From IMG/VR virus record IMGVR_UViG_3300030101_002525, positions 1-27,263 of that record: a stretch of 27,263 nt of DNA; one strand, given 5' to 3'. A program made the position numbers and the translations under genes. Positions 1 to 17,554 of this stretch are shown in pieces. The stretch is from a virus. The stretch's first letter is position 1; each line of letters starts with the position of its first letter. The notes under the pieces are model-generated. The model was not told the DNA's origin. It was given only the letters and a program-made list of their open reading frames with translations, and searched no databases.

Positions 1-100
1 ATCAGTTTTAATGTCATACGTTTCATGCACATCAGGCAACCTGTCTTCAATACCAACCCAGTTTCTATCAATATGCTCTTTGTGCTTTTTATACTTTCGG
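1..100. repeat. Terminal repeat copy 1 (circular overlap)
   Basis: Bases 1-100 match 27164-27263 at 99 of 100 positions; the single mismatch is base 99 (G) against 27262 (T). An open reading frame runs uninterrupted across the join. This is what a circular or circularly permuted genome gives after assembly, and it implies a unit length of about 27,163 bp. A genuine short direct terminal repeat cannot be excluded from sequence alone, but the cut lies inside a coding frame, which favours an assembly overlap. Confidence 0.93.
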
Positions 101-327
101 TAAAATGGTGTTGTCTTGCTAAAAGCAGCAATCTTAATTGTGCGCACTAAATAATACCACAATTCACCACGCTCACATATTGCATCAAATTTGTCAGGCT
201 TATCCCCTAAAACCATAATGCACAAATCTTGCATTAAGTCGTCGCCTAAGTCCGTGCCAACGTACATGCGACAAATGTCCTGTAGTCTGTCGTATTCCTT
301 TTGAAAAAAACGTTGAGTGCAAGTCAC
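1..327 (-). CDS. ECF-like RNA polymerase sigma factor, N-terminal part (continues at 27163 on the circle)
   Basis: Reading down from a GTG at 327..325 the frame stays open to base 1 and continues in frame at 27163 if the ends are joined, giving a 192-aa protein. The GTG overlaps the TGA of the upstream NinG gene (GTGA), typical of translational coupling; no ATG lies between the preceding in-frame stop and this GTG, and the first internal ATG would remove part of the N-terminal domain. The N-terminal half looks like sigma-70 region 2: an acidic helix with GTDLGDDLMQDLC followed by an aromatic/basic segment (ELWYYLVRTIKIAAFSKT, FYRKYKK). The matching half near the other end looks like region 4. 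I infer a phage sigma factor that could redirect host polymerase to late genes, for which no host-type promoter is evident. It could instead be a sigma-like DNA-binding protein without polymerase function. Confidence 0.72.
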   Translation of the reverse strand, partial: MTCTQRFFQKEYDRLQDICRMYVGTDLGDDLMQDLCIMVLGDKPDKFDAICERGELWYYLVRTIKIAAFSKTTPFYRKYKKHKEHIDRNWVGIEDRLPDVHETYDIKTD

Positions 328-722
328 AACTGAGACAAGAGTTTTTCGTAATTCTTTCTCATAGCTACAATGTCTACTATGCTGTACTTGCTGGCCTGCT
401 TACTTAAGTTGTAAATTTTTTTTGCAGTCCCTTTGCCGTATTTGACATCTAAAGCTAATCCGTATTTGTAGTTCTGATTGCTATCGTACAAATTACATCG
501 CGGACATTGCGGCAAAACATTTACCATGCCGTTTTGTGGTTCGTGCAACCATCTTGTACTGTAACATCCTCTGCTCATAAAATGCCCTGCGTGCATAGAC
601 TTGCTCGGTTTTTTTACGCCACACGTAATGCAAGTGCATAGGCCGTGTTTGTCCTCATGAAATTTTCGGACGTACTGACTAAACACTTTGTCTAGTTTTT
701 TTATCTCCTTTGACCTGCTCAC
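324..722 (-). CDS. ninG: NinG-like recombination protein
   Basis: 132 aa. The middle carries a zinc/HNH-like arrangement: CTCITCG near residue 29, then MHAGHFMSRG, an aromatic/Arg segment, NVLPQCPRCN, and YKYGLALDVKYG. This order (Cys pair, GHF, QCxxCN, Tyr/Gly) is that of the lambda NinG/Rap family, whose members act in recombination on branched DNA. It lies at the end of the replication block, after the initiator and helical replication protein, matching the position of nin-region genes in lambdoid phages. Its TGA overlaps the GTG of the sigma-like gene. The length is shorter than lambda NinG; the N-terminal helix (SKEIKKLDKVFSQYVRKF) is present, so the family core looks intact. Confidence 0.82.
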   Translation of the reverse strand: MSRSKEIKKLDKVFSQYVRKFHEDKHGLCTCITCGVKKPSKSMHAGHFMSRGCYSTRWLHEPQNGMVNVLPQCPRCNLYDSNQNYKYGLALDVKYGKGTAKKIYNLSKQASKYSIVDIVAMRKNYEKLLSQL

Positions 723-736
723 ACTTTACAATATAC

Positions 737-1336
737 CTAATCAGTGCCAAGTGTTTTTTTTAACCTACTACCCAAACCCTTGTCTGATTTATTCTGTATT
801 GTTTTTATGTCTAGGCTGTCCACAATTTTTTTAAAGGTTTTTTCGTGTTGCTGTGACCATTCCAATTCTTTATGTTTTTGATTGTGCATGTGCCTTTCCA
901 AAATTGGTGCGCGTACTTCGCCTTCGTACTGTCTTAGGCACTCTAAAATTTCGGCAGTTTTTAAGCGTTCGTACAACTTGCCAAATTTGCCTTGAATAAT
1001 CATGTCGAAACATGTGCGCACCTCTTCAATTTTTAAGGCTGGGAAATCATTAATTATTGCACGACAACACATCTGCAACTCTTCGTCTGTAGACAAGGTT
1101 TTATTTGCGTCTATCATTTTACACAAGCGGCCTACTTCTGTTAACAGCCAAAGTCTTATGCCGCGTTCGTGAACTGGATTTATTTTCATAGCAGCCCGAA
1201 TGTTTGTGCCTAAGACCCAAGCATTTGTTGGTGTTACGCTTTTTATTTCACCCGTTATTAACGAAGTCGATTGCTCCGTTATGAGAGAAGTTGCTTGTGT
1301 TAAAGCCTCGATTTGTTGTGTTCCATTTGTCTGCAT
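737..1336 (-). CDS. Replication-associated helical protein (possible helicase loader)
   Basis: About 199 aa if started at the ATG at 1336; the frame is open further to an ATG at 1423, but that part reads over the conserved tail of the initiator gene. The core is all-alpha: RLWLLTEVGRLCKMIDANKT, then a segment with FPALKIEEVRTCFDMIIQGKFGKLYERL and a Tyr/charged C-terminus. The pattern 'F..L..EEv...f...i.GkfGklYerl...eil..l..Y' is common in Bacteroidota phage and mobile-element replication loci directly after the initiator. By position it may be the helicase-loader counterpart of lambda P, but I see no Walker motifs, so the role is inferred from context only. The 89-base overlap with the initiator gene is notable; a later start would avoid it. 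Confidence 0.6.
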   Translation of the reverse strand: MQTNGTQQIEALTQATSLITEQSTSLITGEIKSVTPTNAWVLGTNIRAAMKINPVHERGIRLWLLTEVGRLCKMIDANKTLSTDEELQMCCRAIINDFPALKIEEVRTCFDMIIQGKFGKLYERLKTAEILECLRQYEGEVRAPILERHMHNQKHKELEWSQQHEKTFKKIVDSLDIKTIQNKSDKGLGSRLKKTLGTD

Positions 1337-1883
1337 TGCGTTGCCAGTTACGCGCGGCTGCTTTCCAATCTTTAATTGCTTTGCCGCGTCCTTGTTTCCA
1401 TCCATTAGTTTCGTAATAATCAAAAAATTTTTCGCCGTCTTGCGGTGACATGCCTAGTTCCACAAAATACACAGCAACTAATTCTAGTGTTGGCCTTGCC
1501 TTACTAAGTTGTTTACTATGTTGTTTACTCTCTTGTTTACTATGTAGACAATTTGGCAACTCTGCCTTGTCAACATGTCCAGTCTGCATAGACAAGTTGT
1601 CCACTCTGCTTCGACACCATCTTTTTCTGCCGTCTGTCTTTGTACTTATTAGGCTTGCACTCTCTAATTCTTTTATTGCTCTGCTAGCCGTTCGCTGACT
1701 AATGTTATAGTCTTCGCTAATTTTCTGATTGCTTTTAAAAAATGAAGCATTGCGACCTGTAAAACTGTGTATGTCTGCCCACAACAATTTAGCTGTTGGC
1801 GACAGTCTCATTTGTAAAATTTCTACAGGCAACCACAACCCTTGAAATTGTCTTACCTCGGTATGTACTTCGTTGTGTTGCAT
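1248..1883 (-). CDS. Lambda O-type replication initiator (winged helix)
   Basis: 211 aa. Residues ~13-100 form a winged-helix initiator domain: FQGLWLPVEILQMRLSPTAK, LLWADIHSFTG, FKSNQKISEDYNISQRTASR, AIKELESASLISTKT. This 'GLWLP.EI....L...aK.L...I' opening is characteristic of phage and plasmid initiators in Bacteroidota. A charged linker (ESKQHSKQLSK) follows, then a C-terminal module with FFDYYETNGWKQGRGKAIKD and WKAAARNWQRNADKW, a DnaD-like tail motif. The linker is encoded by tandem 12-bp repeats (1497-1544), the arrangement seen in lambda where ori lies in the O gene. No polymerase or helicase is encoded, so this protein presumably recruits the host replisome. The 3' end overlaps the next gene by 89 bases. 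Confidence 0.82.
   Translation of the reverse strand: MQHNEVHTEVRQFQGLWLPVEILQMRLSPTAKLLWADIHSFTGRNASFFKSNQKISEDYNISQRTASRAIKELESASLISTKTDGRKRWCRSRVDNLSMQTGHVDKAELPNCLHSKQESKQHSKQLSKARPTLELVAVYFVELGMSPQDGEKFFDYYETNGWKQGRGKAIKDWKAAARNWQRNADKWNTTNRGFNTSNFSHNGAIDFVNNG
1497..1544 (-). repeat. Tandem 12-bp iteron-like repeats, candidate replication origin
   Basis: On the plus strand the 12-mers are TTGTTTACTATG (1509-1520), TTGTTTACTCTC (1521-1532) and TTGTTTACTATG (1533-1544), preceded by a degenerate TGCCTTACTAAG (1497-1508). They are in phase with the helical repeat scale (12 bp) and encode the SKQ repeats of the initiator linker. Iterons inside the linker of the initiator gene are the known layout of lambda-type origins; that these serve as ori here is inference. 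The alternative is simple codon-repeat expansion in a disordered linker. Confidence 0.55.
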
Positions 1884-6338: not shown

Positions 6339-8345
6339 TTATTGTTTATCAATCATTGCTACTGACTCATCTCCTTTTTGCACAACATACGGGTTGTTAC
6401 CTACTCTATTCATTGTCGCGTCCCAATCCTCATACAATTCAGGCAAGCGGTCTACAACTGCTGGCTCGCCTTCAGGAGCAAAAATGTAAATATTTCTTTG
6501 CCAGCCGTGGTAACAATTCTTGCCTCCTGCAAATTCAAAAATGTCATATCTGCTAGAGCCGCTTTCTGCAAACTGACCGTTTTCGCCCGCTTCGCTCATG
6601 CTGCCATTTTCACCAATAGCTATGTCTTCATAGCGATATTGAACTCCGCTGTCAGACAATTCCATCATTTCTACGCAAAAGTCTCTGCTCTGACCAACAG
6701 GCGTTTTGTTGCTTGCTTTGTAATAACTGTAGCGCACAGCAAACAGATTACCTGAAGGGCTTATTACATCGCCCCAATCGCTACGCTCGTCAATGTTACT
6801 GTAGTCTTCCAAATTAAAATTGTATTTGTGCAGATGCAGTTGTCTGTCTTCTGTAATATCGTCTACTACTTCAGTTTTTAGCAAAACAAATTCCTTGCTT
6901 ACAGGCGCATGTTTGTGCGCTAAATGCTTTAACCACTTTTGACTGTCGTCTAAACTAATTCTAGACACACTTAACTGTTGTTCAGCAACGGCAGCATCTT
7001 GCAATTCATCTTGGCTGTCCTCCTCTACAACTTTTTGTATTGCGCTAATGCCTTCTGTAAACAAAGCGTCGGCAACATCAGGCGCAAATTGTAACATCTG
7101 TACAAGGAATACTTTGGCTTGCTCTTCTGTCAGTATGCCCTCTTGCACTTTGACTATTACCTCTACCGCGCTTTGTATTTGTGCGCCGTTGTAAGAAGCA
7201 TCTTTAGTAGCTATATCCTCACTCATCGTCATCTCTTCGACAAACAAGAATGATGCTGGTTGTAATTTTTTAAAGTACAACGGCAGTGTAATGTTCATTG
7301 CACTAAGCATAGGTTGAATACCACGCAACAATACCTCTTGCATTGGTCTCACAACAGTATTATGAAACAACTCGTACGACTCTTTCATTTCGTCGGCATT
7401 GCTGCCGAAGCCGCCGCCTTCTGTGCGCAATCCAAACAACAAAGGGCTAGTTACTCTATGTGACGTAAGCACCCTAGTAGTTATTTCACTGCTCATAAAA
7501 GCGTAAGTTTTCTGCGGGTCAGTAGGCGACAAACTTTCAAACGTTGGTGCGTTTTCGGCACTGTCATTAAACGTCATTAAGAATTTGCCAGCATTTGTAC
7601 TGCCTCCAAATTTGTCATATATGAGTTGTTCCATGCGCCTGCGCTCCTCATCTGTCGGCACACCGTTGTTGAAGGAAATAAGCATTGACGGAAACAAGCC
7701 TGACTGCAAATTAGCTGCGTGAAATTCTGCTATTCTTTTATCACATTCTACCCAACTTACGCCGCCTATGTAATCAGGCAAGCCGTAAAAAAAAGATGTT
7801 GGATTGTACAGTTTAATTTGCACTAATTGACTTGCTGCTGTTCTGTCTTGTGTGCTAAATGCAGGTATAGCTTGTGGGATGTACTTGTTCGTTTGTGACC
7901 AATCTGCACTGTGATAAAATACTTTTACCTCGTCGTCATCATTTGCCTTACCTGCTCGTATGCTAGCTGCGGGCATGTGATGTATCTCAGCAATACTTGT
8001 TCTGTCTTGACTCCAAATAGGATTTAGATAACACTGTCCGTATAGTTTTAAATCCAGCGCGGCACGTTTTAGACATGAGCCGTCGCCAAACATTTGTTGC
8101 AGTCTAAGCCATTGGTCGATGTGTGCGTCTTTTGTGCTGCTGTCTAGACCATGCCCGTATATCATGTCGCTCACACCTTTTACAATAGCGTTGTGCATGC
8201 CGCTGCCTAGCATTAAACTTTCTAGGTAAAACGGGTACATGTTGTCTTCGCCCATCGTTACCCAATCATTTACTGTGTCCTCCTTGAATACAGGAATGTT
8301 TGACGACGAATAGTCAAACATGTTAAAATTAAATTTTTTACTCAT
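6339..8345 (-). CDS. Portal protein with extra C-terminal domain
   Basis: 668 aa, long for a portal. Residues ~1-430 carry portal features: VNDWVTMGEDNMYPFYLESL, GSGMHNAIVKGVSDMIYG, ALDLKLYGQCYLNPIW, IAEIHHMPAASIR, FYGLPDYIGGVSWVE, TSHRVTSPLLFGLR, GGGFGSNADEMKESYELFHN. Residues ~470-668 add a separate module with SRDFCVEMMEL, RYEDIAIGENGS, YDIFEFAGGKNCYHGWQRNI. A similar Cys/'GGxxCxHxWxR' module occurs in capsid-locus proteins of Bacteroidota phages. The portal dodecamer is the DNA entry gate; the role of the C-terminal module is unknown. Unusually, this gene follows the capsid and tail-tube genes. Confidence 0.85.
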   Translation of the reverse strand: MSKKFNFNMFDYSSSNIPVFKEDTVNDWVTMGEDNMYPFYLESLMLGSGMHNAIVKGVSDMIYGHGLDSSTKDAHIDQWLRLQQMFGDGSCLKRAALDLKLYGQCYLNPIWSQDRTSIAEIHHMPAASIRAGKANDDDEVKVFYHSADWSQTNKYIPQAIPAFSTQDRTAASQLVQIKLYNPTSFFYGLPDYIGGVSWVECDKRIAEFHAANLQSGLFPSMLISFNNGVPTDEERRRMEQLIYDKFGGSTNAGKFLMTFNDSAENAPTFESLSPTDPQKTYAFMSSEITTRVLTSHRVTSPLLFGLRTEGGGFGSNADEMKESYELFHNTVVRPMQEVLLRGIQPMLSAMNITLPLYFKKLQPASFLFVEEMTMSEDIATKDASYNGAQIQSAVEVIVKVQEGILTEEQAKVFLVQMLQFAPDVADALFTEGISAIQKVVEEDSQDELQDAAVAEQQLSVSRISLDDSQKWLKHLAHKHAPVSKEFVLLKTEVVDDITEDRQLHLHKYNFNLEDYSNIDERSDWGDVISPSGNLFAVRYSYYKASNKTPVGQSRDFCVEMMELSDSGVQYRYEDIAIGENGSMSEAGENGQFAESGSSRYDIFEFAGGKNCYHGWQRNIYIFAPEGEPAVVDRLPELYEDWDATMNRVGNNPYVVQKGDESVAMIDKQ

Positions 8346-8772: not shown

Positions 8773-9339
8773 TTACGAAGATACAGTAATGTTTGCAAAG
8801 TTTTCAAAAGGCGCAGTGTTGCTGCCGCCTGACGAAGACGATACCATTGTAAAAAATGGAACAGTCTCTTTGCCAACAAAATCTACTGTAAATCCATTAG
8901 CGTCACCAAAATTTTGTCCAGTAGTCATTTGACCAACTGTTACGTCCATCCCATTTGTTGCGCCTAACAAAATCAATTGTCCTTGATTGTCTTCAACAAT
9001 AATGTTAGGGCTGCCGTATGCTAGCATTTTGACTTGATTAGCTTGGTCTTGCGTCAACTTGTTAAAGGTTAACGACAACGTTTGCTCAAAAAATCTAGTG
9101 CCAGTGGCAGGGGCAGCGTTTACACTAATACTCAGGCCAGCCGCTTCTCTACGTGTTTCAAAATGAAAAACAGTTAAAGCACCTGTAGCAGTAATAACAT
9201 TTTCACTTGCACCAGTTCCAACAACTGTCCCAGTAGCAGAGATAATGTCACTGTAATTAGCAATGTAAACACCTTTGATACCGCCTACTGCATCTTTGCA
9301 ATTGTCGCTCGCGCGACCTTCATTAATTAAACAACTCAT
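8773..9339 (-). CDS. Tail tube-like protein, paralogue 2
   Basis: 188 aa, clearly related to the preceding gene: both share a start of the form 'MxC.I..GR...CKDA.GGIKGVYI.NYSD', a FxxRREAxx(L/S) strand, GTxFFEQ, a KLTQ.(D/A)AN helix, IIVEDNQGxLILLG.TNGMDVT and a final FxG.E..PFFT(M/L)V with SSGG. The IIVEDNQG/GMDVTxG segment and beta-rich nature fit a major tail tube/tail structural fold common in Bacteroidota phages. Its ATG overlaps the stop of paralogue 1. Whether both polymerise in the tube, or one is a minor or terminal component, cannot be told from sequence. Confidence 0.7.
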   Translation of the reverse strand: MSCLINEGRASDNCKDAVGGIKGVYIANYSDIISATGTVVGTGASENVITATGALTVFHFETRREAAGLSISVNAAPATGTRFFEQTLSLTFNKLTQDQANQVKMLAYGSPNIIVEDNQGQLILLGATNGMDVTVGQMTTGQNFGDANGFTVDFVGKETVPFFTMVSSSSGGSNTAPFENFANITVSS

Positions 9340-9905
9340 GATGGGTCAATATCAATATGTGGAAACGCAGTAAAAGGAACAGTGCCACCCGACGATGTGC
9401 CAACTAAAGTAAAGAAAGGCTCAATCTCACGACCAGTGAAGGTCAAAGACATGCCATTCAAATCACTAAAGGCTTTGCCTGTCTCGAACGTGCCGCCAGT
9501 AACATCCATACCGTTAGTGTGACCTAACAAGATAAGGTTGCCTTGATTGTCTTCCACAATAATTTGTGGACGACCAGCCGCTAGCTTAGACAAATTGTTG
9601 GCATCACTTTGCGTTAGCTTAGTGAATGTACAAGTAAACACCTGCTCAAAAAAAGTAGTGCCTGTTGTCACATCAGACTGCGTGTCTACAGTAAGGCTAG
9701 CCATTTCACGACGAATAGCAAACTTAAATACGTCGTATTCTTCGCCTCCACCTGAGCCGCCAAGCGTTTGTATAACGTTAGCAGCCGTCGCTCCATAGCC
9801 TGTAAAATTAGCCGTGTCCGAATAATTGTGAATGTAAACTCCCTTAATGCCGCCTGTAGCGTCCTTACAACTGACGCTTCTGCCGCTTGAAATAGTACAA
9901 GGCAT
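9336..9905 (-). CDS. Tail tube-like protein, paralogue 1
   Basis: 189 aa, directly after the major capsid gene. It carries SCKDATGGIKGVYIHNYSD, FKFAIRREMASLTVD, TTFFEQVFTCTFTKLTQSDA, PQIIVEDNQGNLILLGHTNG, MDVTGGTFETGKAFSDLNGM and FTGREIEPFFTLVGTSSGG. High similarity to the following gene over the whole length shows tandem duplication. No other tail tube candidate is present, yet a tape measure, tail terminator-like protein and chaperone exist, so one or both copies likely form the tail tube. Confidence 0.72.
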   Translation of the reverse strand: MPCTISSGRSVSCKDATGGIKGVYIHNYSDTANFTGYGATAANVIQTLGGSGGGEEYDVFKFAIRREMASLTVDTQSDVTTGTTFFEQVFTCTFTKLTQSDANNLSKLAAGRPQIIVEDNQGNLILLGHTNGMDVTGGTFETGKAFSDLNGMSLTFTGREIEPFFTLVGTSSGGTVPFTAFPHIDIDPS

Positions 9906-9926: not shown

Positions 9927-10997
9927 TTACGCTGGCAAAATAGTGCCAAGAGTGCCTACAATAACGTCTTGTGCTACGCCAACTTGCATGCCAAGTCCAA
10001 AACGCATTGTCACACCGACGTTATCTGAGCCGTCATATTGGTAAAACGGAATGTATTGTGCAACAGTGTAATCTGTATTAAGGTTAGACCCAACAACAAG
10101 ATTTTCTGTTTGTGCTGCAATCACGCAATCCGCAGGCATTCCAGGGCAAGTCAAAACAGGCACGCCCAAATAATTCAAGTTGTCAATGGCTTGATTTGTA
10201 GCCTGACCGTTAATGCCTTGACCATTGGAACGTACTGTTGTTGCACCGTCATGAGACACCGCACCGCCAGCACCAGCCAGTGCCTGACGATACAAAGCGG
10301 CAGTCTTAGGATTAACGTAAAGCGAAAAATCAGGCTTTGACAACAAAGCACTGCGGTCTGTTGCCGCCTTGTCATAGACTTTGCCCATCTCTGCAATAAC
10401 ATTCTCAGCAGTAATTGTAGAAATAGTTGCTCCTAATGTGCCTGATGCGCCGACAGCTAATGCACCAGCAGCCAAACCATTGCGGTCAAAGGTTCCGTCA
10501 TTAGACAGAAAACCAGCGCCACCAACAGCACCGCCTCGCCAAATTAGATTTTCTACACCCTCTGCTACCTTACCAGCAACAGTAGCAATAACAAAATTGC
10601 GGAACTCAGGAGCAGCCCAATCTGTAGCATTACGCGCTCCTACCTGCCCCATCCATGTAGGCAAAATTTCAGCACGACAAAGTTTTTCGTTAACCTTCAA
10701 ATCGCTAAGAGTCAACACGCTTTCTGTCAATGCTACACTATCCTCATCATTGAAACCACATGCGCCTGCGCCACCGTCTTGAATAACGTCGTCAGCAATA
10801 GTTGTAATAGACAAGACTGCTTTGCTGCGAATCCCATCAATTTGACGCACATAGTTTTTAGCTAGTGTATCTGCCGCTTTTACAGCAGGGGTCAAATAAG
10901 GTGTAGCTAGTTCACCTGCATACGTGTTGTCGGTGACTGTTGGGTTAGTGAACGCACGACGTTTTGCCCTGCTATTCATCATATCATATTTACTCAT
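9927..10997 (-). CDS. Major capsid protein (HK97-fold)
   Basis: 356 aa. It has the arrangement of Bacteroidota phage capsid proteins without a long N-terminal delta domain: a basic start (SRAKRRAFTNPT), KAADTLAKNYVRQIDGIRSK, a surface loop with Gly/Ala/Asp, LTLSDLKVNEKLCRAEILPT, a helix ATDWAAPEFRNFVIATVAGK, many Gly/Ala segments, FSLYVNPKTAALYRQALAGA, LGVPVLTCPGMPADCVIAAQ and a C-terminal beta end (FGLGMQVGVAQDVIVGTLGT). Gly/Ala-rich composition, size and location next to tail tube and scaffold-like genes support the call. Start overlaps the upstream stop (ATGA). Confidence 0.85.
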   Translation of the reverse strand: MSKYDMMNSRAKRRAFTNPTVTDNTYAGELATPYLTPAVKAADTLAKNYVRQIDGIRSKAVLSITTIADDVIQDGGAGACGFNDEDSVALTESVLTLSDLKVNEKLCRAEILPTWMGQVGARNATDWAAPEFRNFVIATVAGKVAEGVENLIWRGGAVGGAGFLSNDGTFDRNGLAAGALAVGASGTLGATISTITAENVIAEMGKVYDKAATDRSALLSKPDFSLYVNPKTAALYRQALAGAGGAVSHDGATTVRSNGQGINGQATNQAIDNLNYLGVPVLTCPGMPADCVIAAQTENLVVGSNLNTDYTVAQYIPFYQYDGSDNVGVTMRFGLGMQVGVAQDVIVGTLGTILPA

Positions 10998-11575
10998 TTT
11001 GTAAACATATTTTTCATCATTTCAAATGCACGCTGTTTTGGCGACCCGTGGAAAGGTGCGCTAGGCATAGCGTTTTGTGCCTCATTTTGCAGCGGGTTGT
11101 TAGACAACTTGCTAGCTGCTGGCGCATTATTCAATGCTGCCAACTCTTTACGCATTGCTGCAATTTCTTTGCGCTGACGTGCAATAATGCTTCGCTCAGT
11201 AGACAATTTTGTTCGGCCTTGCACTTGAGTTCTGCGACGATTGCGACGCGCTTCCATTGCGCTCATTCGCGAACGGCGACGACGGCGCATTTTCATTTTG
11301 TCATCGTCATCGTGCATGCGCGAACGACGGCGACCACGCATTTTCTTTTTGCGACCATAACCCATGTTACGGCGTTGACGTCTTGCCTCGACAGCTACAG
11401 GCTCTTCTGCCTCTGCTGTAGCGGGATTAGCTTTAATTAAATCCATCGCCATTGTGTGTACGGCTTCTGCCTGTTCAGCACTTAGGCCCATAGCCGTTAG
11501 TGCCTCGACCAACGCGGTGTGCTGGTCGGTTGCTGCTTCGTTGTCAGCCTCTTCAAATTTTTGTTTTTTCAACAT
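10994..11575 (-). CDS. Arg-rich capsid-associated protein (possible scaffold or internal head protein)
   Basis: 193 aa just upstream of the capsid gene. Three parts: residues ~1-62 acidic and helical (EADNEAATDQHTALVEALTA, GLSAEQAEAVHTMAMDLIKA); residues ~63-120 extremely Arg/Lys/Met-rich (GRKKKMRGRRRSR, MKMRRRRRSRM, EARRNRRRTQ); residues ~120-155 a charged helix (STERSIIARQRKEIAAMRKE) like a coiled coil. The C-terminus is Asn/Pro-rich and ends KQRAFEMMKNMFTK. Helical content and position fit a scaffolding protein; the basic tract resembles nucleic-acid condensing proteins and is unusual for a scaffold. Both roles are inference. Confidence 0.6.
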   Translation of the reverse strand: MLKKQKFEEADNEAATDQHTALVEALTAMGLSAEQAEAVHTMAMDLIKANPATAEAEEPVAVEARRQRRNMGYGRKKKMRGRRRSRMHDDDDKMKMRRRRRSRMSAMEARRNRRRTQVQGRTKLSTERSIIARQRKEIAAMRKELAALNNAPAASKLSNNPLQNEAQNAMPSAPFHGSPKQRAFEMMKNMFTK

Positions 11576-11627: not shown

Positions 11628-12353
11628 TTAATGTGACCACCAAATACAGCCATGAATTTCTGTGTATTCATACTCTAAGTCACGCGCGAATTTTTTGTAA
11701 TCAAAGTAAAGAGACATGTTGTCACCAACTGCTTCTCGCAAATCGCCTACGACATCGTAAATAAACCACTCTGCAACGTCCTCATCTCGTTCGTCGTACT
11801 TGTCCTCGTAAGCCTGCATAGCCTCCTCTTCGCTGTCAAATCGGTCTTCCCAATCGTCTAGGTAATAGCTGTACAAAAAATCAACTTTTAACTCATTACC
11901 AAAACTGATAAAATTAAAATAGTTTTCTGCTTGCTCATTTGTAGGGCCACCTTGGTCATCAATAATACTATAGGCATAGTCTAACATGTTGTCGTATTTG
12001 CCCATAAAAGCCTCCTCTAAATAATCTGCACCTGTAGCGGAACCAAAGTGTTCTGACACATCAATAATTTCGCTGCTGTCCAAACCAATTTCGTCTGCAA
12101 ATTCAAACAACTCTTTGAGCAATTCCCAATTATCTTTATTAATGCCAACGGCATCAGTACAGTAACTGTTTATGCCGTCGCTGTCAGCAAACTCCCACTC
12201 CTCGACACCTTGTTCTAACGCTGGTTCAAGATGGTCTTCTTGCAATACATCTAGGTAATCACTATACGTTCTATAAGCAAACGGATAAATGTAAAATCCT
12301 AGATTGTCGTAATTGCGGTCATACGGCGTTAGGTATATGTAAATGCTTTCCAT
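11628..12353 (-). CDS. ArdA-like antirestriction (DNA-mimic) protein
   Basis: 241 aa with about 60 Asp/Glu against about 13 Lys/Arg. ArdA features in order: an N-terminal beta start (ESIYIYLTPYDRNYDNLGFY), a middle with VEEWEFADSDG, LLKELFEFADEIGLDSSEII, EAFMGKYDNMLDYAYSIIDD and a C-terminal domain ending LYFDYKKFARDLEYEYTEIH followed by GCIWWSH. The 'yFDY..fArdLe.ey..i.g.iw' ending and 'F.GkYdn..dyA' motif are characteristic of ArdA. ArdA dimers mimic bent B-DNA and block type I restriction enzymes. It is the last gene of a run of small acidic proteins inside the late operon. Slightly longer than the usual ~165-190 aa. Confidence 0.82.
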   Translation of the reverse strand: MESIYIYLTPYDRNYDNLGFYIYPFAYRTYSDYLDVLQEDHLEPALEQGVEEWEFADSDGINSYCTDAVGINKDNWELLKELFEFADEIGLDSSEIIDVSEHFGSATGADYLEEAFMGKYDNMLDYAYSIIDDQGGPTNEQAENYFNFISFGNELKVDFLYSYYLDDWEDRFDSEEEAMQAYEDKYDERDEDVAEWFIYDVVGDLREAVGDNMSLYFDYKKFARDLEYEYTEIHGCIWWSH

Positions 12354-12354
12354 G

Positions 12355-12573
12355 TTAAATATCAGTGTATTTAAAATCGTAATTTGCTTCTGACAGCAAA
12401 GACGCTATTTCGTTTAATTCTGTTTCCATAAAACCAAAAGTGTAATACACATCAATAACTACATCATTTCCTGATTGCCACACCTCCAAATCAAGAGATG
12501 TGACGTTATCTATCATTTCAAAAATGCGTTGTGCCTGTGCTGTCTCTACGACTATTTGTGCTTCTAGTCTCAT
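12355..12573 (-). CDS. Small acidic hypothetical protein of the ArdA island (a)
   Basis: 72 aa; about 14 acidic against 3 basic residues. Alternating beta/helix (RLEAQIVVETAQAQRIFEMI, DNVTSLDLEVWQSGNDVVID, VYYTFGFMETELNEIASLLS) gives a ferredoxin-like beta-alpha-beta impression. Ends one base before the ArdA start. Upstream the 30-base gap holds a degenerate version of the island leader (AAACAACAACAATTCG, 12590-12605) displaced from the ATG by about 18 bases. Function unknown. Confidence 0.6.
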   Translation of the reverse strand: MRLEAQIVVETAQAQRIFEMIDNVTSLDLEVWQSGNDVVIDVYYTFGFMETELNEIASLLSEANYDFKYTDI

Positions 12574-12602
12574 GTGATGTTTGTAACTCGAATTGTTGTT
12601 GT

Positions 12603-12842
12603 TTAGATAGGGTACATATCTGCAAGCGTCAAACCATAATAGTTCACAACCTCGCGCACTTCATCTTTGAGTTCATTTTCATTCATTCCCCTTACAGCAA
12701 TCAATTCAAACGTATAGCCGTGTGTCCCCATTGTTGAGTCAATATATCCGAGTTCAATCATGTCTTCAATCAAATCCATGTACTCGCTTTCGTTGGTTGG
12801 CTGTCTGCGAGGGGTTGTAATAATGCATTCGTAGGCGTACAT
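12603..12842 (-). CDS. Small acidic hypothetical protein of the ArdA island (b)
   Basis: 79 aa, about 15 acidic against 5 basic. Starts MYAYECIITTPRRQPTNESE, then a helix YMDLIEDMIELGYIDSTMG, a beta turn HGYTFELIAVRGM and a C-terminal helix ENELKDEVREVVNYYGLTLA. Not recognised. The start codon is embedded in the island leader (TAAACCACAACAATATG), which also holds the stop codon of the upstream gene. Confidence 0.62.
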   Translation of the reverse strand: MYAYECIITTPRRQPTNESEYMDLIEDMIELGYIDSTMGTHGYTFELIAVRGMNENELKDEVREVVNYYGLTLADMYPI

Positions 12843-12853
12843 ATTGTTGTGGT

Positions 12854-13111
12854 TTAGCCAAATGACACTACGTCAAGCAACTCGTAAAGCATATTGTCCA
12901 GCAATGACTTTGCCTCGCCTCTCGCGTTTCCAAAAATGTCAATGCGAATTATGCGCAACAGTTCTAAAAAATCTTGTTCTCCGTATTTGTCGTCAATAGC
13001 CTCAATAACCATGTCAACGGCTTCATCAAATGCTCCGCTTGTGTTTATGCCCATGCTGTAAGCGTCGGCCATGTAGTCTGTAACTACGTCTTCCAGTTTA
13101 TTGTAATTCAT
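12854..13111 (-). CDS. Small acidic hypothetical protein of the ArdA island (c)
   Basis: 85 aa from the ATG at 13111 (MNYNKLEDVVTDYM). The frame is open to an ATG at 13156, but the internal ATG is preceded by the island leader TAACCACAACGATATG, as in its neighbours, and the longer form would overlap the preceding gene, so I choose 13111. Helical and acidic: SGAFDEAVDMVIEAIDDKYG, EQDFLELLRIIRIDIFGN, LLDNMLYELLDVVSFG; about 18 acidic against 6 basic residues. No family recognised. Confidence 0.62.
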   Translation of the reverse strand: MNYNKLEDVVTDYMADAYSMGINTSGAFDEAVDMVIEAIDDKYGEQDFLELLRIIRIDIFGNARGEAKSLLDNMLYELLDVVSFG

Positions 13112-13121
13112 ATCGTTGTGG

Positions 13122-13349
13122 TTAGTATGGAAGCACAATGAAAGCAATGCCCGCATTTTCCCACTCTAAATAGGCATCATAATCGTCCATCACGTCTTGC
13201 AGGTCGCGCGAAACATAGGGGTCGTCTTGGAAAGGAGGGTAGTATTCAAGATTGTCGCTTGACTCTGCGCTAACCATGACCTCATCACTACCTGCGTCAA
13301 GGACTTCAACACCAATTCTTTCAAGGTCTCTAATAAGTTTATCAATCAT
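13122..13349 (-). CDS. Small acidic hypothetical protein of the ArdA island (d)
   Basis: 75 aa with 19 Asp/Glu and 4 Lys/Arg. Opens MIDKLIRDLERIGVEVLDAG, then SDEVMVSAESSDNLEYY, FQDDPYVSRDLQDVMDDYDA and a C-terminus YLEWENAGIAFIVLPY. The repeated Asp and amphipathic helices resemble DNA-mimic proteins in composition. Start codon embedded in the leader variant TAAACCACAACGACATG. Function unknown. Confidence 0.62.
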   Translation of the reverse strand: MIDKLIRDLERIGVEVLDAGSDEVMVSAESSDNLEYYPPFQDDPYVSRDLQDVMDDYDAYLEWENAGIAFIVLPY

Positions 13350-13360
13350 GTCGTTGTGGT

Positions 13361-13588
13361 TTACTCTCCGTAATAGTGAATTACAACATCGTTATAATCG
13401 CTTACTTCTAAGAAAATGTCATACTCGTATTCAATATCCTCCATCGCGTCGTAAGCGTTAGCAACCTGACCGCCCATAACCTCAATAAAGTTTACCCACG
13501 TATCAATAATAAGAGTCTCCCCTTTGTCGTAGGCTTTTTGAATTTGTCGGACATCGTAGTAGTCCTCAAATGTTTGTATATAATTCAT
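13361..13588 (-). CDS. Small acidic hypothetical protein of the ArdA island (e)
   Basis: 75 aa, about 17 acidic against 3 basic, with many Tyr. Segments: MNYIQTFEDYYDVRQIQKAY, GETLIIDTWVNFIEVMGGQV, ANAYDAMEDIEYEYDIFLEV, SDYNDVVIHYYGE. The start lies in the exact island leader TAAACCACAACGATATG. Not recognised; composition resembles a DNA mimic, which is inference only. Confidence 0.62.
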   Translation of the reverse strand: MNYIQTFEDYYDVRQIQKAYDKGETLIIDTWVNFIEVMGGQVANAYDAMEDIEYEYDIFLEVSDYNDVVIHYYGE

Positions 13589-13599
13589 ATCGTTGTGGT

Positions 13600-13833
13600 T
13601 TAGTAGGTGTAAGGATTGATTTTATCAATGGCCTCAATAAATTCGCAGTCGTCCATAATGTCTACAAGGTCGTCGCGCAATAGGTCTTCAGACTCAGCCC
13701 ACACAACGCCTAGCATTCTCTTGCCTGTGCAGTCGTCCATAATCATCACCTCGTATGCGTTTTCGTTACCAAACGGGTCGTCCTGTTCGCTAATGTCATA
13801 CTCAGTCAGAAAGTCGTAAGTGGTGTATGCCAT
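13600..13833 (-). CDS. Small acidic hypothetical protein of the ArdA island (f)
   Basis: 77 aa from the ATG at 13833. A longer frame reaches an ATG at 13872, but the internal ATG follows the island leader (TAACTACAACGATATG), and the longer form would overlap the 57-aa gene, so 13833 is chosen. About 21 acidic against 4 basic residues: DFLTEYDISEQDDPFGNENA, YEVMIMDDCTGKRMLGVVWA, ESEDLLRDDLVDIMDDCEFI. Function unknown. Confidence 0.62.
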   Translation of the reverse strand: MAYTTYDFLTEYDISEQDDPFGNENAYEVMIMDDCTGKRMLGVVWAESEDLLRDDLVDIMDDCEFIEAIDKINPYTY

Positions 13834-13843
13834 ATCGTTGTAG

Positions 13844-14017
13844 TTAAATGAATGCGTCTTTATACATTTCATCTTGCGCTTGCTCCAAAAGGCTATATGC
13901 CTTATTAAGCAACTGCACTACGTCGCCTCGTCCTGCGCGGGTTAGTCCGCGCTCGTGGTCATCAATAAATATCAATAGAACGTCGATAACCTCGTTGTAT
14001 TGTTGTGTTGCATCCAT
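13844..14017 (-). CDS. Small helical protein of the ArdA island (g)
   Basis: 57 aa; ATG at 14017 in the exact leader TAAACCACAACGATATG, TAA at 13844, which forms the start of the next leader. Begins MDATQQYNEVIDVLLIFIDD; then HERGLTRAGRGDVVQLLNKA and YSLLEQAQDEMYKDAFI, two helices. Less acidic than its neighbours (11 acidic, 5 basic). Its leader and spacing are what mark it as a gene. Confidence 0.6.
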   Translation of the reverse strand: MDATQQYNEVIDVLLIFIDDHERGLTRAGRGDVVQLLNKAYSLLEQAQDEMYKDAFI

Positions 14018-14028
14018 ATCGTTGTGGT

Positions 14029-14259
14029 TTAGTTTCTTGAAATTTCAATGCGTACACCGCCTTTGTAATCGTAGGCCATATCTACTACATAGCCGATGCG
14101 GTTCAACACAAAGTCAAGGTCATCAATGGCCCTTTGATAATCACGGCCTCCGTGTACTTCAATAAAATGTTGGTTGGCTGTGTCCTCGTCGTCGTGTCCC
14201 CACAAAAGGTCTAACCCAAAGTCATCTGCCCAAATCTCAATTATTTCTACTACATCCAT
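14029..14259 (-). CDS. Small acidic hypothetical protein of the ArdA island (h)
   Basis: 76 aa, first member of the island, directly after the protease gene. About 18 acidic against 6 basic: MDVVEIIEIWADDFGLDLLW, GHDDEDTANQHFIEVHGGRD, YQRAIDDLDFVLNRIGYVVD, AYDYKGGVRIEISRN. A beta-alpha layout is likely. The leader is TAACACAACGATATG, one base shorter in the A/C run than the others. No family recognised. Confidence 0.62.
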   Translation of the reverse strand: MDVVEIIEIWADDFGLDLLWGHDDEDTANQHFIEVHGGRDYQRAIDDLDFVLNRIGYVVDMAYDYKGGVRIEISRN

Positions 14260-14268
14260 ATCGTTGTG

Positions 14269-15465
14269 TTATAGTGTGTTTACTTTAAAACCTGCGTCAA
14301 GCAACACATCTAATACTTCGTCTGCTTCACGACTAGTTGTAGTGTCCTTCATGTGCAGAACTGTAGACGGTGACAAAATGCCGCCTTTGCTTTCTATGCG
14401 ACCTACTAAATAGTCCAAATCTGCATCTATCAAAACGTCTTGCACGTCTCCATGATAGGCCGAAACAAAATAACTAATGTCAGCGTAGAAACGGTGTGCT
14501 TGCATATCAGACAATGTAGTGTTTTTCTTACTTTTTCCAAACTTTTTTGCATAGCGGTTTTTCAACAAGGCTTTGTAAAAATGTACTTGCATAGTGTCTA
14601 GCTGCACTTCTAAAGCAACATCTTGCGCATCAGCCTTGTCTTCAATTGCCTTTGTTTGACCATCGTATTCCAGCAGCACATTGTCGTACACTTCTAATTC
14701 TACGCCTGCTTCTGTTGTGTATTTACCGTTGCTTATGTTTGCAGGTTCGCCCGATTCATTTAGCGTATATACCTCTGTCCCTGCGCTAAACTCCTCTGCT
14801 TCAGTCACAAGCATGTTCCCTGTTGTCAACATCGCCTCTGCGTAAAAATCTTTTTTTCTTACTACAGCGTCATATATGCTTTGCAACATGCTCTTTTTTT
14901 TTGGTTGTTTTGCAACCTGCATTTGCTCTATCCTGTCTAAGAAATAACCTTCAATGCTTAGACCTCTCGCCTCACCTGCCTTTATTTTATCCCATATTTC
15001 AGGGTTGTCCACCTTAGCACGCACCATCCAAGTTCCCTTAGGCAGGTCAGTAAAGCCGTACAATCTTGCCTTATCTACAGCGGGGTCTTGAATAATCCAT
15101 GACTCCACAACGCTTACACCCTCAACGGGTTCTGCATGTTCAAATGTGTGTGCGTTGGCTCTGTTGTTTTTTAAGAACAACTCGCTTGCCAACTTAACTG
15201 TGTCTTGAGAAAAATACACATCGTACTCCTCGTCAGCGGCTTCGTCGTACCTAACGATTTTTAGGTCAGGTATAAGGGCAGGCGCAATCAGTGTGCGCTG
15301 TTCTTCATCCATCTGAGCGAGATGAATCATTTTATTTTGATTGCCCTGCTTGTTGAAGGCTACCCAATTAACTTGAATAGCAGGCTCACGCACTAACGAA
15401 ATAGCTTCTACACCAAAAGCGTGTTTGTCTTCGTCAATCAACAACTCAATAAGTTTGCGACCCAT
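14269..15465 (-). CDS. XkdF-like prohead protease
   Basis: 398 aa. Residues ~1-180 match the phage protease family: IELLIDEDKHAFGVEAISLV, REPAIQVNWVAFNK, MDEEQRTLIAPALIPDLKIV, YDVYFSQDTVKLASELFLKN, ANAHTFEH (candidate catalytic His106 or His110), VSVVESWIIQDP, PKGTWMVRAKVDNPEIWDKI, EARGLSIEGYF (candidate nucleophile Ser170). The enzyme matures the capsid by clipping scaffold and capsid proteins. The C-terminal ~200 residues (acidic stretch, then LKNRYAKKFGKSKKNTTLSD to the end) are less conserved and could act as built-in scaffold. Placed unusually, between tape measure and the acidic island rather than next to the portal. Confidence 0.82.
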   Translation of the reverse strand: MGRKLIELLIDEDKHAFGVEAISLVREPAIQVNWVAFNKQGNQNKMIHLAQMDEEQRTLIAPALIPDLKIVRYDEAADEEYDVYFSQDTVKLASELFLKNNRANAHTFEHAEPVEGVSVVESWIIQDPAVDKARLYGFTDLPKGTWMVRAKVDNPEIWDKIKAGEARGLSIEGYFLDRIEQMQVAKQPKKKSMLQSIYDAVVRKKDFYAEAMLTTGNMLVTEAEEFSAGTEVYTLNESGEPANISNGKYTTEAGVELEVYDNVLLEYDGQTKAIEDKADAQDVALEVQLDTMQVHFYKALLKNRYAKKFGKSKKNTTLSDMQAHRFYADISYFVSAYHGDVQDVLIDADLDYLVGRIESKGGILSPSTVLHMKDTTTSREADEVLDVLLDAGFKVNTL

Positions 15466-15484
15466 ATTCTACAATATAAGGTGT

Positions 15485-17554
15485 TTACAACGATGCCCTT
15501 TGTTCAATGCGTCCTAGCTGCTCAGACTGACCTTGCAAGTCTGATTGAACAACAAACGCTTTAAAATTACGCTCTAAATTTTCGCTGGTAAACTCATTTT
15601 GAGTTTGTTGCGGTATTAGCGGTGTTACTTGTGCGGCAGTGCTAGCAACTTGCTGTGACCCTCTCGCTTGTGCTTGATTCATCAAACCCTTGACTTGCGC
15701 GAACGCGGCAATAATACTGCCTACAATACCTGCTATGTAACCAGCAATTACAAACGGCGCGGCTGGCCCTGTGTCTTTACCTGCCTTAACTGCTGCTGCA
15801 ATACCGTCTGCAATCGCCGTGGCTTGTGAAATTAAAACTTGTGTGATAGCCAAACGCTTTGCGCGTTCTGCACCTTGTTTTTCTATTCTTTCTATTTCTG
15901 CATCTGTCGCACCTCGCACCTTTGCTGCGTCAACTTCTGCCTGTGTTGTCTCTGACACTAAATCAGCATACTGACCTATGACAGAATTTAGATTGTCTGC
16001 TAGATTAATTTTGCTCTGCAATACTGCCTCATCTTGTTTAGCTTGCTCGTCAGCACCTTGTTTGGCTATATCTGCTTTTTCTGCTTCAAACGCTCGTAAC
16101 GCTAGTAATTCAAGTTCTTGATTGCCTGCTGCCTGTAGCATCCTTGCGTCAAATTCTTGTTGCGCTTCTAACAACTGCCTGTCTGCGTCAGACAAAAACA
16201 TTTTATTTAATTCGTCGAACAAGCGTTTTTGAGCATCTAATTCCTTGTTAGGCAAATCTGCTAAAGCCTTACGTCTAGCCTCTTCTATCTCGACAGTATC
16301 AATGCCGTATTGCTTTGCCAATTTAATTAGGTCGTCATATTGGTCATTGACTTGTTTGCGCTGTCGCTCGTCTTGCGTTAGCGTTGCCATCTCAATACGT
16401 TCTAAAGCATCTTTCTCCTCATCTTGCCTCTCTTTATTGTATTCATTTTGCAGTGCTATCAGTTGTTCGTTGTGCTGTTTGCGTAACCGCAAAATATCTT
16501 CATTGCTAAGATTTGCTGCTTCTGCCCTTGCTAATTCTGCCTTTTGTTGTCTCTTTAATCTTAGTGTTGCCAACTCTTCACCTTCTTTACCTAACTCCTC
16601 CTCAAACACGGCTATTTGTTCCAAAAATTGTAGGCGTTGTGCTTCACGTTTTTGCGCTTCACTTTGTGCTTTCTTTGCCGCCAGTTCAGCGGCTCTTTCA
16701 TTTTCTAGCCTTTCTTTTGTTCGTTCTGCGCTTTCACCAACTAATTTGTTGTACGCGGCTTGTGCTGCTGTTAGTTCTGCAACAGCCTCTTGATTAGCCT
16801 CTTCTGCCTCTTCTAACTCCTTATTTAGACGTATCTGCGCACGAAATTTGTTTTCCATAAACTTCGATTGTTCGCGTGCGTTTTTCAAAGTTCCGTCGCC
16901 CCTAGCTAGCGCAGCGTCATCTAAATCTGCCAACGTTTGTCGTTGCTTGACTGTTGCACGTTCTAAATCTTCTTTTGCTTTTAGGGCAGCATTAGCTTGT
17001 TCTATTTGTGTTGCTGCGTCTGCTTCTGTGTCAATGATATTATTAAACTCTTTGTTTAACTGAGCCAACGCCTCTGCTCGTTGCGCGTCAGTTGCTGCTT
17101 GGTCTTTGAGAATATCAATGTAACTACTTGTGCTATTAGTCAGTTTTTGTACCGCTGCATTTTGCTCTGCTGTTTGTTTGGCATTTTTTTCAGCAGCGGC
17201 ATCCACGAAACCTAAAGCCTCAGCTACAGCGTCCCAATTTTCTATTAACGCTTCTAACGCAATAATAATAAGGCCAATGCCAATGCTTGCCCACGCCGCT
17301 TTTAGAGCCTTAAAACTTCGAGACACACGCTTTACCCCACGCTCTGTAGATTTAAAAGACCGCAGCAAGCCTTGTATGTTTCTCGGCAGCAAGCCTGAAA
17401 ACAAATCGGCTACACCGCCCCAATCTTTTGACGCAGATTTAGCACCCTTGCCAGCCGTTTCGCTTACTTCATTTAACTCTGCTGCAAAATCTTCAAGTTC
17501 ACGCGCTGCTTTTTCTGTCTTAACAGTAAGGTTTACTACAATTTCACTTGCCAT
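15485..17554 (-). CDS. Tail tape measure protein
   Basis: 689 aa. Begins ASEIVVNLTVKTEKAARELE, has a hydrophobic helix at ~87-107 (AAWASIGIGLIIIALEALIE), then some 450 residues of coiled coil rich in Ala, Glu, Lys and Gln (EEANQEAVAELTAAQAAYNK, AAELAAKKAQSEAQKREAQR), and a second hydrophobic stretch (APFVIAGYIAGIVGSIIAAF). This is the tape measure pattern. By the usual ~0.15 nm per residue the tail would be near 100 nm. It follows the chaperone, as usual, but with baseplate genes between, which is unusual. Confidence 0.9.
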   Translation of the reverse strand: MASEIVVNLTVKTEKAARELEDFAAELNEVSETAGKGAKSASKDWGGVADLFSGLLPRNIQGLLRSFKSTERGVKRVSRSFKALKAAWASIGIGLIIIALEALIENWDAVAEALGFVDAAAEKNAKQTAEQNAAVQKLTNSTSSYIDILKDQAATDAQRAEALAQLNKEFNNIIDTEADAATQIEQANAALKAKEDLERATVKQRQTLADLDDAALARGDGTLKNAREQSKFMENKFRAQIRLNKELEEAEEANQEAVAELTAAQAAYNKLVGESAERTKERLENERAAELAAKKAQSEAQKREAQRLQFLEQIAVFEEELGKEGEELATLRLKRQQKAELARAEAANLSNEDILRLRKQHNEQLIALQNEYNKERQDEEKDALERIEMATLTQDERQRKQVNDQYDDLIKLAKQYGIDTVEIEEARRKALADLPNKELDAQKRLFDELNKMFLSDADRQLLEAQQEFDARMLQAAGNQELELLALRAFEAEKADIAKQGADEQAKQDEAVLQSKINLADNLNSVIGQYADLVSETTQAEVDAAKVRGATDAEIERIEKQGAERAKRLAITQVLISQATAIADGIAAAVKAGKDTGPAAPFVIAGYIAGIVGSIIAAFAQVKGLMNQAQARGSQQVASTAAQVTPLIPQQTQNEFTSENLERNFKAFVVQSDLQGQSEQLGRIEQRASL

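Follow-up and report, generated by a model that had tools for sequence, protein, structure and literature searches.

Small accessory genes of T4-type phages are shuffled as modules with a short constant noncoding element, which in the mobile regulatory cassettes described in 2010 by Arbiol et al. (Genome Biol Evol 2:140) is reportedly an early promoter with a stem-loop. In archaeal viruses, anti-defence genes have been found through a shared regulatory sequence that acts as a strong early promoter of individual genes and led to 116 families, with activity tested for two genes (PMC11065993). These two systems are the nearest known kinds to a gene array in the IMG/VR virus record IMGVR_UViG_3300030101_002525, positions 1 to 27,263 of which form the window that we analysed (27,263 nucleotides (nt)). 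The array is an island on the minus strand (11628–14259) of eight small acidic open reading frames (ORFs) and a gene of the ArdA family, located between genes for an XkdF-like protease and a scaffold-like protein.

The array resembles the T4-type cassettes in its modular small genes with a constant noncoding element, and the archaeal-virus genes in that many unrelated small genes, from about 109 families here, stand behind one virus-specific upstream sequence. The differences from these nearest kinds are that the element is a translational joint rather than a promoter, that it is located in a structural operon and that it coincides with exchange boundaries. No promoter with a stem-loop was found for each cassette; the joints measure 11 nt from stop to start and contain no dyad. 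Unlike the archaeal-virus promoter, the joint connects genes of one operon and its edges are also the limits of exchange, whereas the functions of the genes are in our case predicted from sequence. Integrons are similar in their mostly single-ORF cassettes, constant joints, large shared pool and reordering, but the array has no recognised integrase (none among the 30 window proteins scanned with Pfam or PHROGs) and no foldable attC-like site. Its 14-nt translational linker was rejected as such a site, being too short, without a dyad and not self-complementary. We found no description of such an array in the literature searched (open papers).

The stop-to-start linker

The sequence TAA-ACCACAACGAT-ATG, which comprises the stop codon of the preceding gene, 11 nt and the next start, precedes nearly every small gene of the island. 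A preliminary description of this DNA had overlooked the linker, which is more important than the features that it listed. The pattern TAAACCACAACRAY, with up to two mismatches, has eight matches in the window against 1.4 expected, and all eight are within the island. Further arrays were collected by scanning IMG/VR with the exact linker and with TAAACAACAGAGATATG, the variant of relatives that have about 50% protease identity; a sister clade has its own linker, ACAACAGAGAT. All loci together provided 249 distinct linker-led contexts, in which the median protein is 79 amino acids (aa) long with a net charge of −0.14 per residue (median). Of the 218 contexts with an identifiable upstream ORF, 193 have the TAA of that ORF separated from the ATG by exactly 11 nt. 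Hardly any variation is seen at positions −14 to −1, and beyond −16 the sequence is nearly random.

Across the 20 contigs that include both borders, 128 linkers fall within the interval between the tape-measure and capsid genes and none outside it, which rules out that the linker is a signal for translation in the phage generally. The linker is uniform within a clade and differs between the two clades at three fixed positions. The two versions are never mixed in one array, and 12 families occur in both clades, each behind the respective linker. Around 30% of families end in the codon TAC, which lengthens the shared joint to TAC-TAA-N11-ATG; the resulting frequent C-terminal tyrosine is encoded by TAC in 29 of 30 cases and is thus an extension of the linker. 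Single-copy matches to the linker in five unrelated contigs were taken as chance.

Exchange of single cassettes

The 249 linker-led ORFs form about 109 families by BLAST clustering, 57 of them seen once; these counts apply at the BLAST level, and profile comparison merges a few. Among same-family pairs with more than 70% DNA identity, 92 of 99 have unrelated neighbours on both sides. This check of flank alignments used a loose threshold, and the position-by-position identity profile is better evidence: in 68 pairs with more than 80% DNA identity, identity is about 0.93 across the cassette and its linkers and about 0.28 immediately outside, and the drop lies at −15 (5′ side) and +14 (3′ side). 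The boundaries of similarity coincide with the edges of the linkers, and cassettes are exchanged one at a time.

For statistics on arrays, those sharing at least 60% of their proteins were collapsed, which left 39 non-redundant arrays. In these, 48 families recur, yet not one of the 168 ordered pairs of neighbours is seen again, and no family occurs twice within one array (5.8 expected; P = 0.0005). Phages with core proteins of about 50% identity carry cassette proteins that match each other at more than 80% identity (median 93%); conversely, three phages with proteases that are 97–99.5% identical have only single cassettes in common, at different places. The median ratio of nonsynonymous to synonymous substitution rates (dN/dS) is 0.17 (91 pairs, 33 families), which indicates purifying selection and thus that the cassette genes are real. 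Non-consensus linker variants do not travel with the cassette that they precede (identical in 1 of 36 informative pairs). The linker therefore belongs to the junction and not to the cassette, as expected if crossovers occur inside it.

In relatives, the arrays are always in the same interval and their contents are almost completely different. In this comparison only the presence of a linker was used, as the labels assigning it to one of the two types were unreliable (loose threshold). The linker, the shuffling, the sharp boundaries and the purifying selection strongly support the cassette array that the preliminary description had proposed. More distant relatives (protease 45% identity) have no array. 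A third clade (L008, L009, L012, L020 and L069) has an acidic array of similar kind, in which the A-rich joints (AAAACAACTTAAAG, TAATAAAAAGAAT) are less regular and many starts overlap; some of its families also occur in the window.

Proposed counter-defence role and competing explanations

The only recognisable member of the array is the ArdA-family gene at its end (11628–12353, minus strand). Its extremely acidic product (241 aa; 61 aspartate and glutamate against 13 lysine and arginine residues) belongs to this family by profile (Pfam PF07275, E = 1.4e-11, with 45.7 bits where the cut-off is 27; PHROG 2059 ‘anti-restriction’, E = 6e-17), in agreement with its first annotation. The protein is long and divergent: its match to the ArdA structure in the PDB (2w82) is marginal (E 0.013), and tblastn found no match in 50,697 phage records and none in plasmid records. 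The gene has no linker in the window, whereas an 89% identical ArdA gene in another array (L002) has an exact one; ArdA is present in most relatives with complete arrays.

The eight small proteins have net charges of −0.105 to −0.221 per residue, and the net charge per residue of the island is lower than that of the 36 other window genes tested (Mann–Whitney P = 6e-6). Seven of them were said to have roughly three to six times more acidic than basic residues, and the measured ratios are 3 to 5.7. None has a significant match in Pfam or PHROGs, as was anticipated, and no relative was recognised outside these arrays in the databases searched. For the cassettes a3 and a6, no relative was found in the 50,697 phage records, and pattern-based IMG/VR scans returned this phage group only. 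The a3 protein is 100% identical to UniProt A0A516MKP2 in a viral structure library, and this virus or a near twin has therefore already been deposited. The idea that the small proteins are DNA mimics holds as far as their strong negative charge. Structure prediction, made for two of the eight, does not support the relationship further: the model of a8 (predicted local distance difference test (pLDDT) 89) has a generic ferredoxin-like fold with generic matches, and that of a3 (AlphaFold2, pLDDT 83) has weak structural matches only. No small family is detectably related to ArdA, and profile comparison did not support an origin of the small proteins as ArdA fragments.

On balance, we think it probable that the locus is a hypervariable array of one-gene cassettes that are exchanged through their linkers and mostly encode inhibitors of host defences. 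Each cassette is a single ORF, usually for an acidic protein of 60–100 aa. The clade-specific linker contributes the stop of the preceding gene, the region of ribosome entry and the start of the following gene, and any ORF between two linkers could be translated without signals of its own. Recombination inside the 14–17-nt linkers would take place between co-infecting phages, perhaps assisted by the NinG/Rap-type recombination endonuclease of the phage (324–722, minus strand), a candidate helper of exchange. Most cassettes would act against host defences, with ArdA as the recognisable one, and each phage would carry a small non-redundant set from a large shared pool. Counter-defence is the likeliest predicted function of the small proteins because of ArdA, the acidity, the dispensable and fast-changing content, the non-redundancy within arrays and the purifying selection on each protein.

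Several points weigh against this interpretation. Profile and homology searches identified no known inhibitors among the relatives of the small proteins, whose inhibitory activity is a prediction. Defences that act at entry would hardly be countered by late expression from a structural operon, unless the phage packaged these proteins. Exchange at 14–17 nt of homology is what we infer, and cassettes without the linker do occur, at a few junctions and in the third clade with its less regular joints.

Small acidic phage proteins often act in host takeover, and the cassettes might instead encode proteins of this kind, for instance ones that inhibit RNA polymerase or another enzyme of the host. The second half of a3 superposes on T7 Gp2 (Z 5.0, root mean square deviation 2.2, 50 residues) and on RNA polymerase epsilon/YkzG (Z 5.1), but both matches are tied with ribosomal proteins, below the informative level of the tool and not above background, and the likeness was set aside as too weak to use. 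The near-complete turnover of cassettes among phages with almost identical proteases fits diverse defences better than conserved host targets, and we regard host takeover as distinctly unlikely to be their role. Packaging of the cassette proteins in the head, with ejection alongside the DNA to disarm restriction at entry, would account for the location of the array beside the prohead protease and scaffold-like genes. That location is constant, and in relatives the protease gene is itself linker-led and embedded within the array. The injected restriction inhibitors Ip1–3 of T4, which are unrelated proteins from a variable hotspot (PMC12373910), and DarA and Hdf of P1, which line the capsid (PMC12810830), are likewise variable anti-restriction sets encoded beside head-assembly genes. 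However, the internal proteins of T4 have an N-terminal leader for packaging in common, whereas 102 family representatives from the arrays have no positional conservation at the N terminus and share neither a leader nor a processing motif. The cassettes have only the noncoding linker in common, and strong acidity is of no obvious help for packing beside DNA. The location of the array recalls the T4 and P1 proteins, but with no leader shared, packaging stays a rival that we consider unlikely.

A different question is whether the linker takes part in exchange. Its conservation could be due solely to a function in translation or RNA processing, as a signal that a clade-specific factor recognises, with exchange occurring by other means and the boundaries simply marking gene ends. 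The fixed length of the stop-to-start spacer is consistent with this, and the presence of one linker per clade, never mixed, suggests a reader acting in trans. Initiation in Flavobacterium favours A at −3, −6, −12 and −13 (PMC6847099); the linker has A at −6, −12 and −13, but G replaces the favoured A at −3, so that translation by itself is not a sufficient explanation of the invariance. As the linker is absent in front of the remaining phage genes and its variants are uncoupled from the cassettes, as expected for crossovers inside it, a role as signal only seems somewhat unlikely. Tentatively, and with more doubt than assent, we suggest that the linker is dedicated to exchange and combines crossover site, stop, ribosome entry and start in one short, clade-specific sequence, which would turn any ORF caught between two linkers into a working and swappable anti-defence gene; a clade-specific factor would keep the linkers uniform, and the system would be an integrase-free viral counterpart of integrons.

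The repeated linker is a simple sequence key for harvesting candidate counter-defence genes, and one phage group has already yielded about 109 families, most without a known relative. Exchange of single genes at 14–17 nt of shared sequence, for which the arrays are a natural and testable example, also bears on the origin of phage mosaicism. If their location means packaging, injected anti-defence proteins would extend to small phages of probable marine Bacteroidota.

Layout of the island and probable host

All eight small ORFs and the ArdA homologue were recovered on the minus strand, and the reported size range of 57–85 aa holds once the starts of a6 and a3 are set directly after the linker. 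Acidic and basic residues are given below as aspartate plus glutamate/lysine plus arginine, and each linker precedes the cassette named with it. Cassette a1 (14029–14259; 76 aa, 18/6) has weak homologues in two other arrays (L103 and L016); in its linker (14260–14273, TATAACACAACGAT, two mismatches to the consensus) the protease stop TAA lies 9 nt before the ATG. The least acidic protein, a2 (13844–14017; 57 aa, 11/5), follows an exact linker (14018–14031, TAAACCACAACGAT), and a search for homologues found none. The ORF of a3 (13600–13833; 77 aa, 21/4) opens at 13872, and its start at 13833 was set by the linker (13834–13847, TTAACTACAACGAT, two mismatches) and by homologues. Next come a4 (13361–13588; 75 aa, 17/3), behind an exact linker (13589–13602), and a5 (13122–13349; 75 aa, 19/4), behind TAAACCACAACGAC (13350–13363). 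Cassette a6 (12854–13111; 85 aa, 18/6) starts inside the longest ORF, right after a linker with a 10-nt spacer (13112–13125, CTAACCACAACGAT, two mismatches), and is present in at least four other arrays at differing positions. The linker of a7 (12603–12842; 79 aa, 15/5) is TAAACCACAACAAT (12843–12856). After a7 stands a decayed linker (12592–12605, TAAACAACAACAAT) with TCG in place of the following ATG; the start of a8 (12355–12573; 72 aa, 14/3) lies 19 nt further on.

The island was described as splitting a structural operon between protease and scaffold genes. The protease at one border (14269–15465, minus strand) is confirmed as XkdF-like (Pfam Peptidase_S78_2, E = 2e-16), whereas the scaffold-like gene at the other (10994–11575, minus strand) is identified from position only. 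The scaffold-like protein has a middle part very rich in arginine and lysine (isoelectric point about 11), which is unusual beside a very acidic array. A putative major capsid protein (9927–10997) and a putative tape-measure protein at the outer border of the interval (15485–17554), both on the minus strand, are inferred from position and length; sequence searches of Pfam, PHROGs and the PDB gave no match that would name the scaffold-like and capsid candidates, and no profile names the tape-measure candidate.

Among cultured phages, the closest relatives infect Flavobacteriia: the capsid candidate has 22% identity with Nonlabens phage P12024 and the terminase 37% with Flavobacterium phages. 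A Shine–Dalgarno-like motif is present at none of the 28 non-island gene starts tested, an absence that is usual in Bacteroidota (PMC6847099). On these grounds the host of this uncultured phage group would be a member of the Bacteroidota, probably marine. In bacterial genomes, the sole match to the array is a 5-kb contig in a Pseudomonadales metagenome-assembled genome, which is probably a misbinned phage.

The sequence CCTTATATTG lies just upstream of the protease gene (15472–15481) and is possibly a phage promoter; its frequency in the window is not above chance. In relatives, it is found ahead of the first gene that follows the tape-measure gene and also before genes like that at 8342. The capsid candidate is followed by two tandem paralogues (8773–9905; both PHROG 19091), of which several relatives apparently have only one. 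In L103, a 544-aa ORF (16–1650, minus strand) is an apparent fusion of the protease with an ArdA-like part.

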